Of a DNA stretch of 21,759 nt, positions 15,068-19,361 are shown one piece after another. The DNA is taken from positions 1-21,759 of IMG/VR virus record IMGVR_UViG_3300028569_000191; one strand, given 5' to 3'. The notes below the pieces were generated by a model that did no database searches, was not told the DNA's origin, and saw only the letters and a program-made list of their open reading frames with translations. Position 1 is the first letter of the stretch, and each line of letters opens with the position of its first letter. A program made the translations under genes and the position numbers. The DNA comes from a virus.

Positions 15068-15365
15068 TCGGTCAGGTAATTTAGCACACGAAAGAAAAGT
15101 AAGATCTTTCGAAAGAGCAGGGCTGACAAAATATCAACGTCGTTTTGAATCCAGAAAAGATATACGTTTAGCCGGTAAAATTTGGAGCCGTAGCGAAGGG
15201 GAGAACAACCGTATTTCAACTCGAGAAAGAAAAACGGAGGAAATGAAAACCAAACCCGTCGGCGTGGGATTTGGCGGAAGGGACAACATTGAGCCAGATC
15301 AACAATACTCTTCTGTAGAGTTTCTCAACAAAAAACTCGCCCAAATGAGCTATACAGATCAATAA
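15060..15365 (+). CDS. basic hypothetical protein
   Basis: 101 residues, ATG 15060 overlapping the previous stop by eight bases, so translationally coupled. The first 65 residues are very basic (RKVRSFERAGLTKYQRRFESRKD and RERKTEEMK) with helical character; then VGVGFGGRD and an acidic/polar end. A nucleic-acid-binding or scaffold-like role is possible. Its last 41 bases overlap the convergent methyltransferase-like gene (15325-15903). No family recognised. Confidence 0.62.
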   Translation: MSDRSGNLAHERKVRSFERAGLTKYQRRFESRKDIRLAGKIWSRSEGENNRISTRERKTEEMKTKPVGVGFGGRDNIEPDQQYSSVEFLNKKLAQMSYTDQ

Positions 15366-15903
15366 AATCTCTTATTCGTTTATCCGTATTTATAGAAGAA
15401 GGAAAATAGTAAATAAAGCCAAAACATCTTGTCTTAATAGATTTAGGTAAACCTGGAGAATCTATAAACAGTTCGGGTCTTTCTTTTGCGACACAAAGAG
15501 GAAGATCTAGCCCTATTTTTTGTGTTGTGAGAAGAGCTACTTCGGATGAGGTTAAAAAAACTATTGCTTCTTCAAATTCATTTTTTCTATACTTACTTAA
15601 ACAAGTTTCTAACCATACTCGCTGCGCAGAACGATGAAATCTTTTTCTTTTTTTAAACAAATAAGGATCTTTAGGTTGCTCCTCGTTAGACAACATGTCT
15701 CGCGGCGGGTATAAATACAACGATTTAGCTTTCCACTTTTGACGAAGACCATCGTCTTCTTTTGTAAAAAATCTTGTAGCACAAACTAAAGTATTAGCTT
15801 CTTTGCTTGAAGCAGGGTCCAGTTCTATTTCCCCATTAAAAAAAGAAGTTGTTATCCCTATTAACTCTGGGGGAGAAACAAAATCAACCTGCGCTAGCGG
15901 CAT
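15325..15903 (-). CDS. phage Dam-like (PF05869) DNA adenine methyltransferase with altered catalytic motif
   Basis: 192 residues, ATG 15903. The order GEIELDPASSKEAN (24-37), TRFFTKEDDGLRQKW (43-57) and YLYPPRD (63-69) follows the phage N6-adenine methyltransferase family, whose members read 'LDPAs…..N', 'FFT.eddGL.q.W' and 'NPPY'. In those enzymes the N/D of (N/D)PP(Y/F) is catalytic; here it is Y65-P-P-R. The codons on the minus strand read TAT CCC-equivalent (tac ccg ccg cga), so this is not a simple ambiguity. The C-terminal half (RVWLETCLSKY, EAIVFLTSSEVALL, RCFGFIYYFPS) fits the family's fold. It may bind target or SAM without methylating, or have shifted chemistry. It is the last gene of the minus-strand cassette. 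Confidence 0.72.
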   Translation of the reverse strand: MPLAQVDFVSPPELIGITTSFFNGEIELDPASSKEANTLVCATRFFTKEDDGLRQKWKAKSLYLYPPRDMLSNEEQPKDPYLFKKRKRFHRSAQRVWLETCLSKYRKNEFEEAIVFLTSSEVALLTTQKIGLDLPLCVAKERPELFIDSPGLPKSIKTRCFGFIYYFPSSINTDKRIRDFIDLYSSFGRVFC

Positions 15904-16306
15904 TTGCTTTTTTATTAAGGTTTTCTTCTGCTTGATTTATGTCGATTACATGGATGCTCATGCCTTTTTCATCCACTAAAACAACGACAGGTTTTTTTGA
16001 TTTTTCTTGGTTTTCAATAACAACCAGCAATTTACGTAAAAATTCAACTAAATTTTTATCCATTATTTCTTCTGCTAAAATTATATCTGTTTTAATAAGA
16101 GAAACCGTCATATATCGACTAAAAGAAGGTTGCGTGGGATTAAAAAACAGAGCCCCCGCCCCTTCTGTTTTTTGAAATTCTTCAAAAAGAGTGACTACAT
16201 CTCCAACAATGAGTTTGATTGCACTCAAAGCCACTCTGTTTTGAATTTCACTCGGGCCAAAAAGTTTTTCAGCTAGCTTAACTGCTTTTTCCCTGAAATT
16301 TTTCAT
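15884..16306 (-). CDS. hypothetical protein in the minus-strand cassette
   Basis: 140 residues from ATG 16306, which follows the upstream stop as TAAAATG; an ATG at 16336 would overlap the HTH gene by 29 bases. It overlaps the methyltransferase start by 20 bases. The sequence is helical at the N-terminus (MKNFREKAVKLAEKLFG) and has hydrophobic beta-like strands later (PVVVLVDEKGMSIHVIDI), ending in a charged tail. No recognised family. Tight packing on both sides argues that it is translated together with its neighbours. Confidence 0.68.
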   Translation of the reverse strand: MKNFREKAVKLAEKLFGPSEIQNRVALSAIKLIVGDVVTLFEEFQKTEGAGALFFNPTQPSFSRYMTVSLIKTDIILAEEIMDKNLVEFLRKLLVVIENQEKSKKPVVVLVDEKGMSIHVIDINQAEENLNKKANAASAG

Positions 16307-16307
16307 T

Positions 16308-16616
16308 TTAATAACCTGAAAAAGAAGACCATGCATCGCTTAGCACTTTAGCCGAATCGAATAGAAAATTAGAGATATTGTTTTCCGCCTTATCTATTTT
16401 GCAATAATGACGGCCTTCAATCAAACCAGAAGAACCTCCTGAAGTTATACCCTGATACACTAGTTTATCTATAGTTACAGGTTGTACTCCTAGTCGTAGA
16501 GCAATTACTTTTCGATTCACAAACACCGGAGTTGAGTTGCCTGAACTAGAACTTGCAATGGTCTGCAAACTCGCGTCAATACTTCGAAGAATGTCAAAAA
16601 CGTCTTTGGTAAACAT
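16308..16616 (-). CDS. putative helix-turn-helix DNA-binding protein
   Basis: 102 residues from ATG 16616; a GTG at 16646 would lie inside the upstream terminator hairpin, so I reject it. The middle part FVNRKVIALRLGVQPVTIDKLVYQG (about residues 32-56) looks like an excisionase-type HTH ('k..A..LgVs..Ti.klv..G'), followed by RHYCKIDKAENN. The N-terminal 25 residues look like a helix (VFDILRSIDASLQTI) and may mediate dimerisation. There is no Shine-Dalgarno: the start codon sits 11 bases beyond a terminator-like hairpin and T-run, so expression probably depends on read-through. Confidence 0.62.
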   Translation of the reverse strand: MFTKDVFDILRSIDASLQTIASSSSGNSTPVFVNRKVIALRLGVQPVTIDKLVYQGITSGGSSGLIEGRHYCKIDKAENNISNFLFDSAKVLSDAWSSFSGY

Positions 16617-16618
16617 AT

Positions 16619-16648
16619 AAAAAGATAAAAAGGGTTGCTTCGGCACCC
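16619..16648 (-). terminator. intrinsic terminator at the end of the structured leader
   Basis: Reading leftward: GGGTGC-CGAA-GCAACCC, a stem of six pairs with one bulged A and a four-base loop, then TTTTT-ATC-TTTTT. It lies directly before the ATG (16616) of the HTH gene. Confidence 0.75.
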
Positions 16649-16758
16649 GATATCAGGCATCGAAGTTCAGTTGCCACGATCAGGAAATGGTGAAAACTGA
16701 TCGTACCCTTGGAGGATACCGGAACAAGACCATTCTTACAAGTTCCGGCCTCTCAATT
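16619..16758 (-). ncRNA. structured leader RNA or small RNA candidate
   Basis: The 142-base gap between two minus-strand genes holds four or more hairpins. Listed in plus coordinates: 16719-16725/16742-16748 (CCGGAAC/GTTCCGG, with an inner AAGA/TCTT); 16676-16683/16697-16704 (ACGATCAG/CTGATCGT); 16656-16659/16672-16675 (GGCA/TGCC); 16632-16638/16643-16648 (terminator). On the minus strand the loop of the first contains AATGGT and the loop of the second contains ACCATT, a six-base complement that allows a loop-loop contact. The RNA ends in an intrinsic terminator 11 bases before the HTH start. It does not match any riboswitch class I recall and is not a tRNA. It could be a cis-acting attenuator or a free small RNA. 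Confidence 0.6.
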
Positions 16759-17181
16759 TTAAGGTTGCTTAAGCCATTCTGAGTCTGTCAGGTCAACTAT
16801 TTTTGTGGGTTTACGAGTAAAACCTGCCCTTATTGTCTTAGTTATATTTGGTTGTTCAAATCTAGACTTTAAATGAGCTGGGTTTACGCAACCAATTGTG
16901 CCACAAATTCGTTTTAAACAAAAATTACCGATATCAGCTTTATAAAAACCATAATAAATATTTTCTATTTTTAATTTTTTACCTTCTATATTTATGTTTT
17001 TATAATTAGTACTCCAACATTTGTCAAAATCTGTCTTTTGTTGCGTTAGTTGCAAGAAAAGACCTCTTAAATGAGGACTCAATTGATTTAAATCAGGTTT
17101 ACTAGCATTTTCATTAATATTTTTATAACACTCCGCACAAACTGTTTCTGTTTTTATATGATCTTTGTTTCTTAGACACAT
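16759..17181 (-). CDS. HNH-derived zinc protein (CVNPAH motif)
   Basis: 140 residues, ATG 17181. Zinc ligand candidates are C15/C18 (VCAEC) and the block RICGTIGCVNPAHL with C93, C98 and H103. 'C…C-V-N-P-x-H-L' is the C-terminal half of HNH_3-type nuclease domains, but the usual catalytic H-x-C before it is replaced by LKRIC and no second HNH histidine is evident. The upstream WSTNYKNINIEG…IYYGFYKADIG fits the 'W.G..n..GY…..R..Y…G' part. It may be a nuclease remnant used for DNA binding. The layout is the same as in the gene 17824-18486 of the same cassette. The stop is followed by the structured RNA region. Confidence 0.65.
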   Translation of the reverse strand: MCLRNKDHIKTETVCAECYKNINENASKPDLNQLSPHLRGLFLQLTQQKTDFDKCWSTNYKNINIEGKKLKIENIYYGFYKADIGNFCLKRICGTIGCVNPAHLKSRFEQPNITKTIRAGFTRKPTKIVDLTDSEWLKQP

Positions 17182-17183
17182 TT

Positions 17184-17609
17184 TTAAATTGATTTTAAAA
17201 TTAATTCTAGTTGCTCAATAAAATCAACAGGCTCGTGGATTAAAAGTTCAACAACTTTTTTTAATTTACCTTCAGGGTTTAACTCTTTTTCTGTTTCATT
17301 CAATATAAACCAGTAAGTATATGCGTTTAACATATATGTGTGCGTTTGTTTAGCTTTTAAAGCCTGGGTCTTCCATTTTTCATAGTCAAAATTTGATTGA
17401 TGTCTGCTGCTGCCTGTTTTTAGTTCCAGCTCCCTTATTTCTATTTGCAGTTCGATATCCCGAATTGTGTAGTTAAGAGCGGAAATTTTAGCTTTACACT
17501 CTTTTAAATTTTTTGGTTCTTCTGAATCTGAATAAATCCAAGGAGGAAGGTTTTCAATAACATATTCCTGAGCCCAGAGGCATGTTTTCTGCTCTACGTC
17601 ACTGACCAT
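17184..17609 (-). CDS. hypothetical helical protein
   Basis: 141 residues, ATG 17609, two bases from the next gene of the cassette. The central part (residues about 35-70, LKECKAKISALNYTIRDIEL onward) has heptad spacing typical of a coiled coil. SNFDYEKWKTQALKAKQTHTY and MLNAYTYWFILNE follow, a pattern I associate with small conserved cyanophage proteins, though I cannot name one. The C-terminus is helical. It overlaps the upstream winged-helix gene by 16 bases. No function can be stated. Confidence 0.65.
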   Translation of the reverse strand: MVSDVEQKTCLWAQEYVIENLPPWIYSDSEEPKNLKECKAKISALNYTIRDIELQIEIRELELKTGSSRHQSNFDYEKWKTQALKAKQTHTYMLNAYTYWFILNETEKELNPEGKLKKVVELLIHEPVDFIEQLELILKSI

Positions 17610-17938
17610 GGGACTAAAAAAGAAAGGATTAGTGGACTGTATTCACCGTTGAGCACATACAGAACGTGTGACTCAAAATTGACTCGGATAACCAAATTGT
17701 ACTTAATAAGTTGTTTTAAACTCCTTAAAGTATTTTGTTTTGATGTACCCAGCTCGTTAAGGATTTCTTTTAGGGATAAAGGTTGGTCACATAATAACAG
17801 ATGAATTAAAGCGGAATGATAATTTATGCAAGCACTGATTTTTTTAAATTCGTGATTGTTCTTAGCGAAATTGTGCGGCAATACTTTGTCTCCAACAACA
17901 GTTGAATGGATTTGTTGGACATTTTTTTGTTCAGCCAT
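17594..17938 (-). CDS. winged helix-turn-helix regulator
   Basis: 114 residues from ATG 17938, or 95 from TTG 17881. Residues about 38-95 form a winged HTH of the MarR/ArsR style: YHSALIHLLLCDQPLSLKEI, then LGTSKQNTLRSLKQLIKYNLV and a wing IRVNFESHVLYVLN. With the ATG start it overlaps the upstream gene by 115 bases, and its first 36 residues would be read through that gene's HTH in another frame. The TTG at 17881 has a GGAGA seven bases upstream and shortens the overlap to 58 bases; this phage uses TTG starts with good RBSs elsewhere. It is probably a transcription regulator of the cassette or of the host. Confidence 0.68.
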   Translation of the reverse strand: MAEQKNVQQIHSTVVGDKVLPHNFAKNNHEFKKISACINYHSALIHLLLCDQPLSLKEILNELGTSKQNTLRSLKQLIKYNLVIRVNFESHVLYVLNGEYSPLILSFLVPWSVT

Positions 17939-18486
17939 AAAAACACGTCATTTTTCATCTGTGGAGTCACTTTGCTAGCGGGACTTAGTGTACGCATCAT
18001 GTGATATGGATTTACACAGACCTCACACTTACAAGTGGGAAGAACTTTATCCTTGGTCTGCAGCTGAACTCCATAGAATTTAGAGTAAACAAATCTCCTT
18101 GGCCTCATAATAATCCCATCCGTGTCAACCAGCCGCTGAAACTGCTTAGGTAGAAGTAAGTGCTCCTCCTGGTTAAGACTTGGTTTGTTTTGCGCTAACC
18201 AAGCAGCAACTCTCTCGGAAGCACTTTTGGCTTCACGGTCCTCTTTTAAGCAAACAAGGCAAGCAAAGCGGCCAGCGACCGGATGCGAGCGTGTGAGATC
18301 CCTTGTGACGACAAGCGTGGGGGAACTTCTTTGGCAAGAGCAAGTAAGTCTGCTAAGGAACCCGAAGTCTTCGACCCTGTAAGAATCCAATTTATACGTT
18401 TTTAAGGGAAGGCCTTGGGTTTTTTGGTCGGATATAGGCGTCTGGACGACTAAGCCGAAGACAGAAAGTAAGGTCGGATCGGACAC
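17824..18486 (-). CDS. zinc-ribbon / HNH-derived / HTH regulator
   Basis: 220 residues from GTG 18486, first gene of the minus-strand cassette. Three parts are visible: cysteines C49/C51 and C76/C79 (TCSC; ACLVC), a probable zinc ribbon; RFVYSKFYGV…TCKCEVCVNPYHM (131-163), the HNH-type C-terminal half with C152, C154, C157 and H162 but no catalytic H-x-C; and a C-terminal HTH (about 173-216: VTPQMKNDVFLWLNKKMSNK, then RTISLRTITNLKK). The last two parts suggest a former homing-type nuclease turned DNA-binding regulator. It shares the CxxC / FYG / CVNPxH order with 16759-17181. The end overlaps the next gene by up to 115 bases. Confidence 0.7.
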   Translation of the reverse strand: MSDPTLLSVFGLVVQTPISDQKTQGLPLKTYKLDSYRVEDFGFLSRLTCSCQRSSPTLVVTRDLTRSHPVAGRFACLVCLKEDREAKSASERVAAWLAQNKPSLNQEEHLLLPKQFQRLVDTDGIIMRPRRFVYSKFYGVQLQTKDKVLPTCKCEVCVNPYHMMRTLSPASKVTPQMKNDVFLWLNKKMSNKSIQLLLETKYCRTISLRTITNLKKSVLA

Positions 18487-19013: not shown

Positions 19014-19361
19014 ATGGGCACCCAAAAAACAAAAGCTGAGTTAAGAGAAAGATTTGCAGATATGTACAAAATGTACTTAGGAGGAAACTCGTACGAGCAG
19101 ATAGGTAAGCATTACGGGGTAACACGAGAACGTGTTCGTCAGATTTTTAAAAGTTACAGCTCCCCAGAACAATATGCACAGATACAACAAAAAGTCCTAA
19201 GTCGACGTATCAGTCCTCGTCAGATCGAGACTATTTGCTCTCTAATCAAGCTGGGGGATTCTTGCAGCAAAATAGCAGAAACTTTAGGCTGCAGTGTTGA
19301 CTGCATTAAACGTGTTTCCTCTAAGTATAAACTTCAAGAATTAGCAAAAGTAAACACATAG
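19014..19361 (+). CDS. double helix-turn-helix protein, sigma region 4-like
   Basis: 115 residues, ATG 19014. The first HTH (residues about 24-46, GGNSYEQIGKHYGVTRERVRQIF) closely resembles sigma-70 region 4 ('t.eeIg..lgvTrErVRQI'). The second (about 65-102, RQIETICSLIKLGDSCSKIAETLG, then VDCIKRV) is a plain HTH. There is no region 2, so it is not a complete sigma factor. It could redirect RNA polymerase (anti-sigma or sigma-4-like coactivator) or bind DNA by itself. It lies upstream of the fibre cluster and could control it; this is inference. Confidence 0.68.
   Translation: MGTQKTKAELRERFADMYKMYLGGNSYEQIGKHYGVTRERVRQIFKSYSSPEQYAQIQQKVLSRRISPRQIETICSLIKLGDSCSKIAETLGCSVDCIKRVSSKYKLQELAKVNT

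Follow-up and report, generated by a model that had tools for sequence, protein, structure and literature searches.

Purine riboswitch aptamers, located in 5′ leaders, are built on a three-way junction in which two hairpins are held side by side through loop–loop pairing. Structured RNA motifs have also been described in cyanophages, namely manA, wcaG, and PhotoRC-II, of which manA and wcaG lie in likely 5′ UTRs (PMC2864571). In the OLE and GOLLD RNAs, palindromic loops with covarying adjacent bases have been argued to be evidence of intermolecular contacts or homo-oligomers (PMC12286853).

The window analyzed here is the whole of a 21,759-base virus record (IMGVR_UViG_3300028569_000191), which carries a structured RNA of ~125 bases directly upstream of a gene for a small helix-turn-helix (HTH) protein (Table 1). 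The modeled span is slightly shorter than the gap at 16619–16758 for which the original prediction had proposed a structured minus-strand leader-type RNA tied to the HTH gene, and this proposal is borne out by covariation, by the G–U bias of the paired positions, and by the constant coupling of the RNA to that gene. The major capsid protein of the window shares 68% identity with its counterpart in Synechococcus phage S-EIV1, the sole named relative found, and larger relatives of the record reach 87 kb. The capsid similarity agrees with the cyanophage origin that had been proposed, and at sequence level the assignment of this lineage to S-EIV1-related cyanophages is supported.

Table 1. Positions of the RNA, its parts, and the neighboring features in the window.
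Feature	Position	Strand	Details
Conserved regulatory cassette	15325–18486	(−)	Strand opposite the structural genes
HTH gene	16308–16616	(−)	Putative MerR/excisionase-type winged helix-turn-helix, 102 aa; directly downstream of the RNA
Structured RNA	16627–16751	(−)	Span of covariance models R1/R2 (123 positions)
P2, 3′ strand	16630–16635	(−)	ACCCUU; covariation; originally read as terminator stem plus U-run
P4 arm	16636–16669	(−)	Invariant U-G/G-U tandem wobble; 12-nt palindromic tip (16657–16646)
Junction J3/4	16670–16675	(−)	G-N-A-A, unpaired, conserved
P3 hairpin	16676–16704	(−)	8 bp; 13-nt loop UUUUCACCAUUUC bearing a kissing strand
Kissing helix, 3′ half	16686–16691	(−)	ACCAUU, in the P3 loop; pairs with 16734–16729
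P2, 5′ strand	16705–16710	(−)	AAGGGU, closes the three-way junction; covariation, 70 sequences
P1 hairpin	16718–16749	(−)	9 model pairs; 12-nt loop GUAAGAAUGGUC (16739–16728)
Kissing helix, 5′ half	16729–16734	(−)	AAUGGU, in the P1 loop; pairs with 16691–16686
−10-like box	16756–16761	(−)	TAAAAT; TANNNT in 60/60 loci
Optional HNH-type gene	16759–17181	(−)	Upstream of the RNA; phrog_1872, 4e-06; stop codon overlaps the −10-like box

Relatives of the RNA and comparative evidence for its fold

A search with the HTH protein returned 12 IMG/VR loci whose upstream regions kept this architecture despite extensive changes in sequence, and a pattern of the two loops alone returned 20 loci, each with the HTH gene downstream or sharing its contig with an HTH locus. 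An alignment of the 12 HTH proteins led to 80 loci, and two further loop-only patterns together with one search for a different neighboring gene raised the collection to ~100 IMG/VR contigs in total (80 + 11 + 10), from which 70 distinct sequences were analyzed. Ten records searched over their whole length contained one convincing copy of the RNA each. In cmsearch, the window copy scored 117.8 bits with R1 and 107.6 bits with R2, and R1 also detected sequences outside its training set at 105.6 and 56.7 bits.

The 70 sequences share one order of elements, in which P1 and a short linker are followed by the 5′ strand of P2, P3, the G-N-A-A strand, P4, and the 3′ strand of P2. P2 consists of five core pairs, usually with an outward extension, and P3 sits directly on it, while P4 has 15 pairs including the U-G/G-U tandem and leads directly into the 3′ strand of P2. 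The invariant unpaired bases comprise GNAA in J3/4 as well as UUUU and GNAANAA in the loops. Pairing was kept in 95.0% of the base-pair cells compared with 64.7% after shuffling, with 927 cells changed on both sides (287 shuffled) and a covariation score of 0.812 (0.226 shuffled), and none of 500 shuffles reached the observed pairing, double changes, or covariation score. Six slid structures brought pairing down to 30–49%, and the covariation result was repeated on smaller sets of 13 and 59 sequences. Both-side changes occurred at all nine pairs of P1 (88.7% of cells paired), at 8/8 pairs of P3 (97.5%), and at four of the five model pairs of P2 (96.9%). The P1 stem CCGGAAC/GTTCCGG (16748–16742 with 16725–16719) and the P3 stem ACGATCAG/CTGATCGT (16704–16697 with 16683–16676) are exactly as first described for the minus strand, and the test set beforehand, namely whether homologous gaps keep the stems by compensatory change, came out strongly in their favor.

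The loop segments AATGGT and ACCATT of P1 and P3, which had been recognized as exact complements, retain this relationship throughout: the kissing helix, of the form AANNNN/NNNNUU, is paired at all six positions in 70/70 sequences (420/420 cells), with compensatory change at four positions and ~18 different complementary hexamers. The kissing pairs are absent from the covariance models, so they had no part in shaping the alignment. On a tree of four neighboring proteins from 37 phages, which is independent of the RNA, the four variable kissing pairs underwent 14, 2, 8, and 7 changes of pair type (31 in total) with zero mismatches. A divergent subtype of the RNA (L106–L142, for example L120 at 2796–2919) has P1 loops of GUAAC or CCGG type and a C-G instead of a G-C pair at the base of P4, and matches a separate phage clade on the same tree.

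G-U cells outnumber A-C cells by 359 to 31 in the homologue alignment, which establishes its strand as that of the HTH gene. This bias disfavors any reading of the region as a DNA-level element, such as an operator, a cruciform, or a recombination or packaging site. Although 49/70 P4 tips are perfect 12-nt DNA palindromes, as such an element might have, G-U pairs are tolerated where A-C pairs are not, and the invariant U-G/G-U tandem of P4 makes sense only as RNA, so that we give scarcely any credence to a DNA-level function. Taken alone, the region in the window had only a moderate folding advantage over shuffles (z −2.7 to −2.9), a modest signal, and its minimum-energy fold breaks the true P3; single-sequence folding therefore could not decide the structure. 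By comparative standards, by contrast with such folding, the fold is certain, and because it and the two pairing loops were kept while most letters were rewritten, the element is almost certainly a functional RNA controlling or accompanying the HTH gene.

The remaining parts of the original description fared less well. The GGCA/TGCC hairpin falls outside the conserved fold, its sequence being the 3′ half of the three-way junction (P2 and P4), and the claimed intrinsic terminator is followed by a U-run in only 7/70 distinct sequences and was not listed by a consensus terminator scan. In the terminator-like GGGT...ACCC of the window, ACCC forms the 3′ side of P2 and is paired with AAGGGT on the 5′ side, and GGGT lies in P4. 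An attenuator, or a small RNA whose 3′ end is set by an intrinsic terminator before the HTH gene, could draw on this window hairpin and the Ts behind it, but the hairpin would compete with the strongly covarying P2 and P4, and we consider a mechanism of this kind extremely improbable. Given that the terminator is not conserved and that the first possible HTH start codon abuts P2 in some relatives, attenuation and a terminator-defined small RNA are unlikely as general explanations.

The RNA matched no known class, as had been anticipated. Searches with the 4227 families of Rfam 15 at gathering score gave no match in the window, in seven homologous loci, or in 20 further divergent loci, and a relaxed Rfam search gave chance-level matches only, the best to the element at E 1.5. 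A DNA similarity search of phage records with the element and a 4.1-kb region found nothing real, and tblastn of the HTH protein against phage records found none, so that the relatives come from IMG/VR only. An exact-sequence search with the P3 hairpin gave zero matches; a loose pattern run over bacterial genomes totaling 257 Gb produced three matches, all by chance and lacking the stems, one of them at 10.8 bits and E 4.3, and two loop-specific pattern scans gave five chance matches without a model match or the HTH gene. No description was found in the literature on cyanophage RNA of such type. The element is a real and hitherto uncatalogued, new RNA family.

Predicted transcript start and the coupled HTH gene

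The TANNNT box before the RNA is mostly TAGACT, TAAACT, or TAAAAT and is located 7–10 bases upstream of the first model position in 57/60 loci, with the usual box also visible in the remaining three. Its distance from P1 is nearly constant, while its reading frame relative to the upstream stop codon varies. The optional HNH-type gene is missing in many loci that retain the RNA and looks, from the comparison of loci, like a mobile insertion. As the box occurs in varying frames and is kept whether or not this gene is there, coding does not explain it. No −35 box is conserved among the homologous loci, and the −10-like site was not listed by a consensus promoter scan. Normal spacing from the −10-like box would put the first nucleotide of the transcript where the pairing of P1 begins, and we thus infer that transcription starts at 16749 or immediately beside it.

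The RNA was found directly upstream of the HTH gene in 80/80 HTH loci. Among the loci detected by RNA pattern, 36/41 matched the model, 35 of these 36 with the HTH gene and the last truncated by the edge of the piece, and the five without a model match were also without the HTH gene. Both were present in 34/34 loci found via a different gene, and the two coincide wherever both could lie inside the piece examined. S-EIV1 keeps the homologs of g15884 and of the methyltransferase gene side by side (E 3e-14 and 4e-29; KJ410740, about 75.9–76.8 kb) without the HTH gene and without the RNA, and both covariance models, plus an unfiltered search near the cassette, gave nothing above chance there. Since this phage retains the last two cassette genes and lacks both the HTH gene and the RNA, the RNA tracks the HTH gene, not the cassette. 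On the comparative evidence, the RNA has the sense of the HTH gene, consists of P1 and a three-way junction with pairing between the P1 and P3 loops, and is inseparable from that gene. Nevertheless, the constant adjacency could also follow from how compact phage genomes are, and the same cassette surrounds the RNA in all loci.

The cassette encodes, in order, an HNH-like protein, a MarR-like winged HTH protein, an unknown protein, the optional HNH protein, the RNA, the HTH protein, a further unknown protein, and a Dam-like methyltransferase. The optional HNH-type gene is present or absent exactly between the neighboring gene and the RNA, and the −10-like box is intact either way. The MarR-like protein lies at 17594–17938 (−), and a MarR protein of another cyanophage has been reported to increase host RNase E (PMC9692554). 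A small protein encoded at 19014–19361 (+) resembles, as judged by eye, sigma-70 region 4 (EQIGKHYGVTRERVRQIF).

The HTH protein of the window had no Pfam match at E ≤1 and no sequence match among proteins of solved structure. Its predicted structure, of fair confidence (pLDDT 84.7), had a Foldseek match at E 0.16, and in VIA-align reached Z 5–7 (maximum 7.2) to viral packaging-motor domains, BldC, Xis, and Nu1, so that the model resembles the winged HTH of small terminases, BldC, excisionases, and MerR about equally. This bears on the possibility of an analog of phi29 pRNA acting as the partner of the HTH protein as small terminase. The complementary loops and three-way junction would suit such a packaging RNA, the best VIA-align matches are among domains from a viral DNA packaging study, and 20/53 members gave matches to the terminase small subunit family phrog_57, at E 2e-4 at best. 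However, BldC, Xis, and MerR fit the fold at similar Z, the family also matches the MerR-like phrog_2474 at 2.5e-4, the cassette contains regulator-type and methyltransferase genes without a terminase, the ends of the RNA are not paired with each other, and Rfam gave no match; a packaging role appears very improbable. Because terminase, Xis, BldC, and MerR domains are all among the fold matches, these do not decide the function of the HTH protein.

The HTH gene starts without a Shine–Dalgarno sequence, as originally stated, but this is not special to it, since an SD-like motif precedes just 8/30 genes of the window. The proposal that the missing motif makes HTH expression depend on the element is accordingly weak, most genes of this phage being without one.

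Possible modes of action

A leader RNA would be expected to hold a constant position upstream of the same gene and to keep compensatory structure in the sense of that gene, and both were found. We think that the new RNA family is probably a 5′ leader acting in cis on the HTH mRNA. The conserved TANNNT box would belong to the promoter, with transcription initiating at the foot of P1, and, given that no terminator is conserved, the RNA would remain attached to the HTH mRNA. The HTH start codon lies a median of 8.5 nt beyond the end of the RNA model, which adds 4 unpaired positions, so that P2 ends only ~12 nt before the start codon. The folded leader would thus fall within the footprint of the initiating ribosome, which makes control of HTH translation or of HTH mRNA lifetime in cis the most likely mode. 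Binding of a partner may stabilize or destabilize the kissing-loop fold. Candidates are the HTH protein, a metabolite, some other factor from phage or host, and a further molecule of the RNA that docks via the palindromic P4 tip.

If the partner were a metabolite, the RNA would be a riboswitch for HTH translation, which is a specific form of the leader reading and shares in its likelihood instead of adding to it. The compact junction, the loop–loop contact, the invariant unpaired bases, and the 5′ leader position could all be expected of a riboswitch. However, no alternative pairing, terminator, or sequestered start site is conserved: the unpaired probability of the HTH start region was 0.52 against 0.47 in control starts, and because the start region is not more paired than the controls, no classical expression platform is visible. 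Moreover, the downstream gene always encodes a DNA-binding protein and never a metabolic one, and the RNA is absent from the bacterial genomes scanned with the sequence pattern, so that we regard metabolite sensing as unlikely.

The leader might also guard the phage mRNA against host ribonucleases by a hairpin at the first transcribed base, with no sensing involved. P1 begins at the predicted start site, and antisense cover of phage transcripts has been reported to be protective against RNase E in another cyanophage (PMC9692554). A plain hairpin would be sufficient for this purpose, though, leaving the conserved junction bases, the kissing helix, and P4 unexplained, as well as the restriction to one gene and to one copy per genome, and such a shield is distinctly improbable as the whole function.

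P4 is capped by a self-complementary segment of 12 nt in 68/70 sequences, with changing letters and with tetraloops such as GCGC, GUAC, ACGU, GAUC, AGCU, and AUAU. The palindrome includes the two central bases, which are unable to pair within one hairpin, and this middle dinucleotide changed 14 times on the tree with self-complementarity kept. Self-complementarity is 1.00 with wobble pairs allowed and 0.90 for Watson–Crick pairs, against 0.72 and 0.44 expected by chance from column make-up, and the combination C-A is absent where ~17% would be expected. Because chance self-complementarity is already high in these Y-R columns, the signal is suggestive of an RNA dimer contact at the P4 tip but does not amount to proof. 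A different explanation for the tip may lie in its 4-base DNA palindromes, found beside a Dam-like methyltransferase gene.

A palindromic and possibly dimer-forming tip would also be expected of an RNA that stands by itself, as GOLLD and ROOL do. In the spirit of these, the RNA could act in trans or as RNA only, whether excised from the transcript of the HTH gene or transcribed from a promoter of its own; it would dimerize through P4 tips and merely adjoin its partner gene. Its own −10-like box, its highly conserved unpaired bases, and the central tip bases that always self-pair through their changes on the tree are in keeping with this; the lack of a conserved terminator, the start codons abutting P2, and the high chance level of tip self-complementarity speak against it. 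We hold this trans-acting role to be doubtful, while taking it as an alternative to the cis-acting leader.

Within the preferred reading of a cis-acting leader, the tip raises the possibility of a homodimeric RNA switch, in which the leader docks a second copy via P4 while P1 and P3 kiss, and HTH output, and through it the timing of this reverse-strand cassette in the course of infection, is set by transcript abundance or by a bound factor. We offer this switch as a speculative and quite unlikely scheme.

Strongly covarying new RNA families are uncommon, and structured leader RNAs are few in phages outside the T4-like group. If regulation of the HTH gene holds true, a freshwater or marine cyanophage lineage would have RNA-level control of a conserved regulatory cassette, and if the P4 tip dimerizes, the short list of small natural RNA multimers would gain a member. 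The model and the 70-sequence alignment make the leader and dimer readings directly testable.

Comparison with known RNAs

With the purine riboswitches the RNA shares the three-way junction, the hairpins paired through their loops, and the location in a 5′ leader. Unlike in those aptamers, one of the kissing hairpins, P1, stands outside the junction, the kiss consists of six full base pairs, and there is neither a recognizable purine-binding core nor an Rfam match. The phi29 pRNA is likewise phage-encoded, of similar size class, and built with a three-way junction and two mutually complementary loops, here those of P1 and P3, which could pair within or between molecules. Here, however, the 5′ end forms its own hairpin, P1, the 3′ strand pairs internally as P2, the RNA always lies before the HTH gene, and its sequences match no Rfam model.

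The cyanophage motifs manA, wcaG, and PhotoRC-II resemble the present family in being structured RNAs of cyanophages, whereas theirs are T4-like phages with sugar or photosynthesis genes, and their Rfam models gave no match here (PMC2864571). GOLLD, ROOL, and OLE, two of them from phages, are structured RNAs with palindromic loops and covarying adjacent bases, a feature that the P4 tip may share; they are several hundred bases long, and GOLLD and ROOL lie near tRNA islands, whereas the RNA described here is ~125 nt long and tied to one gene (PMC12286853).
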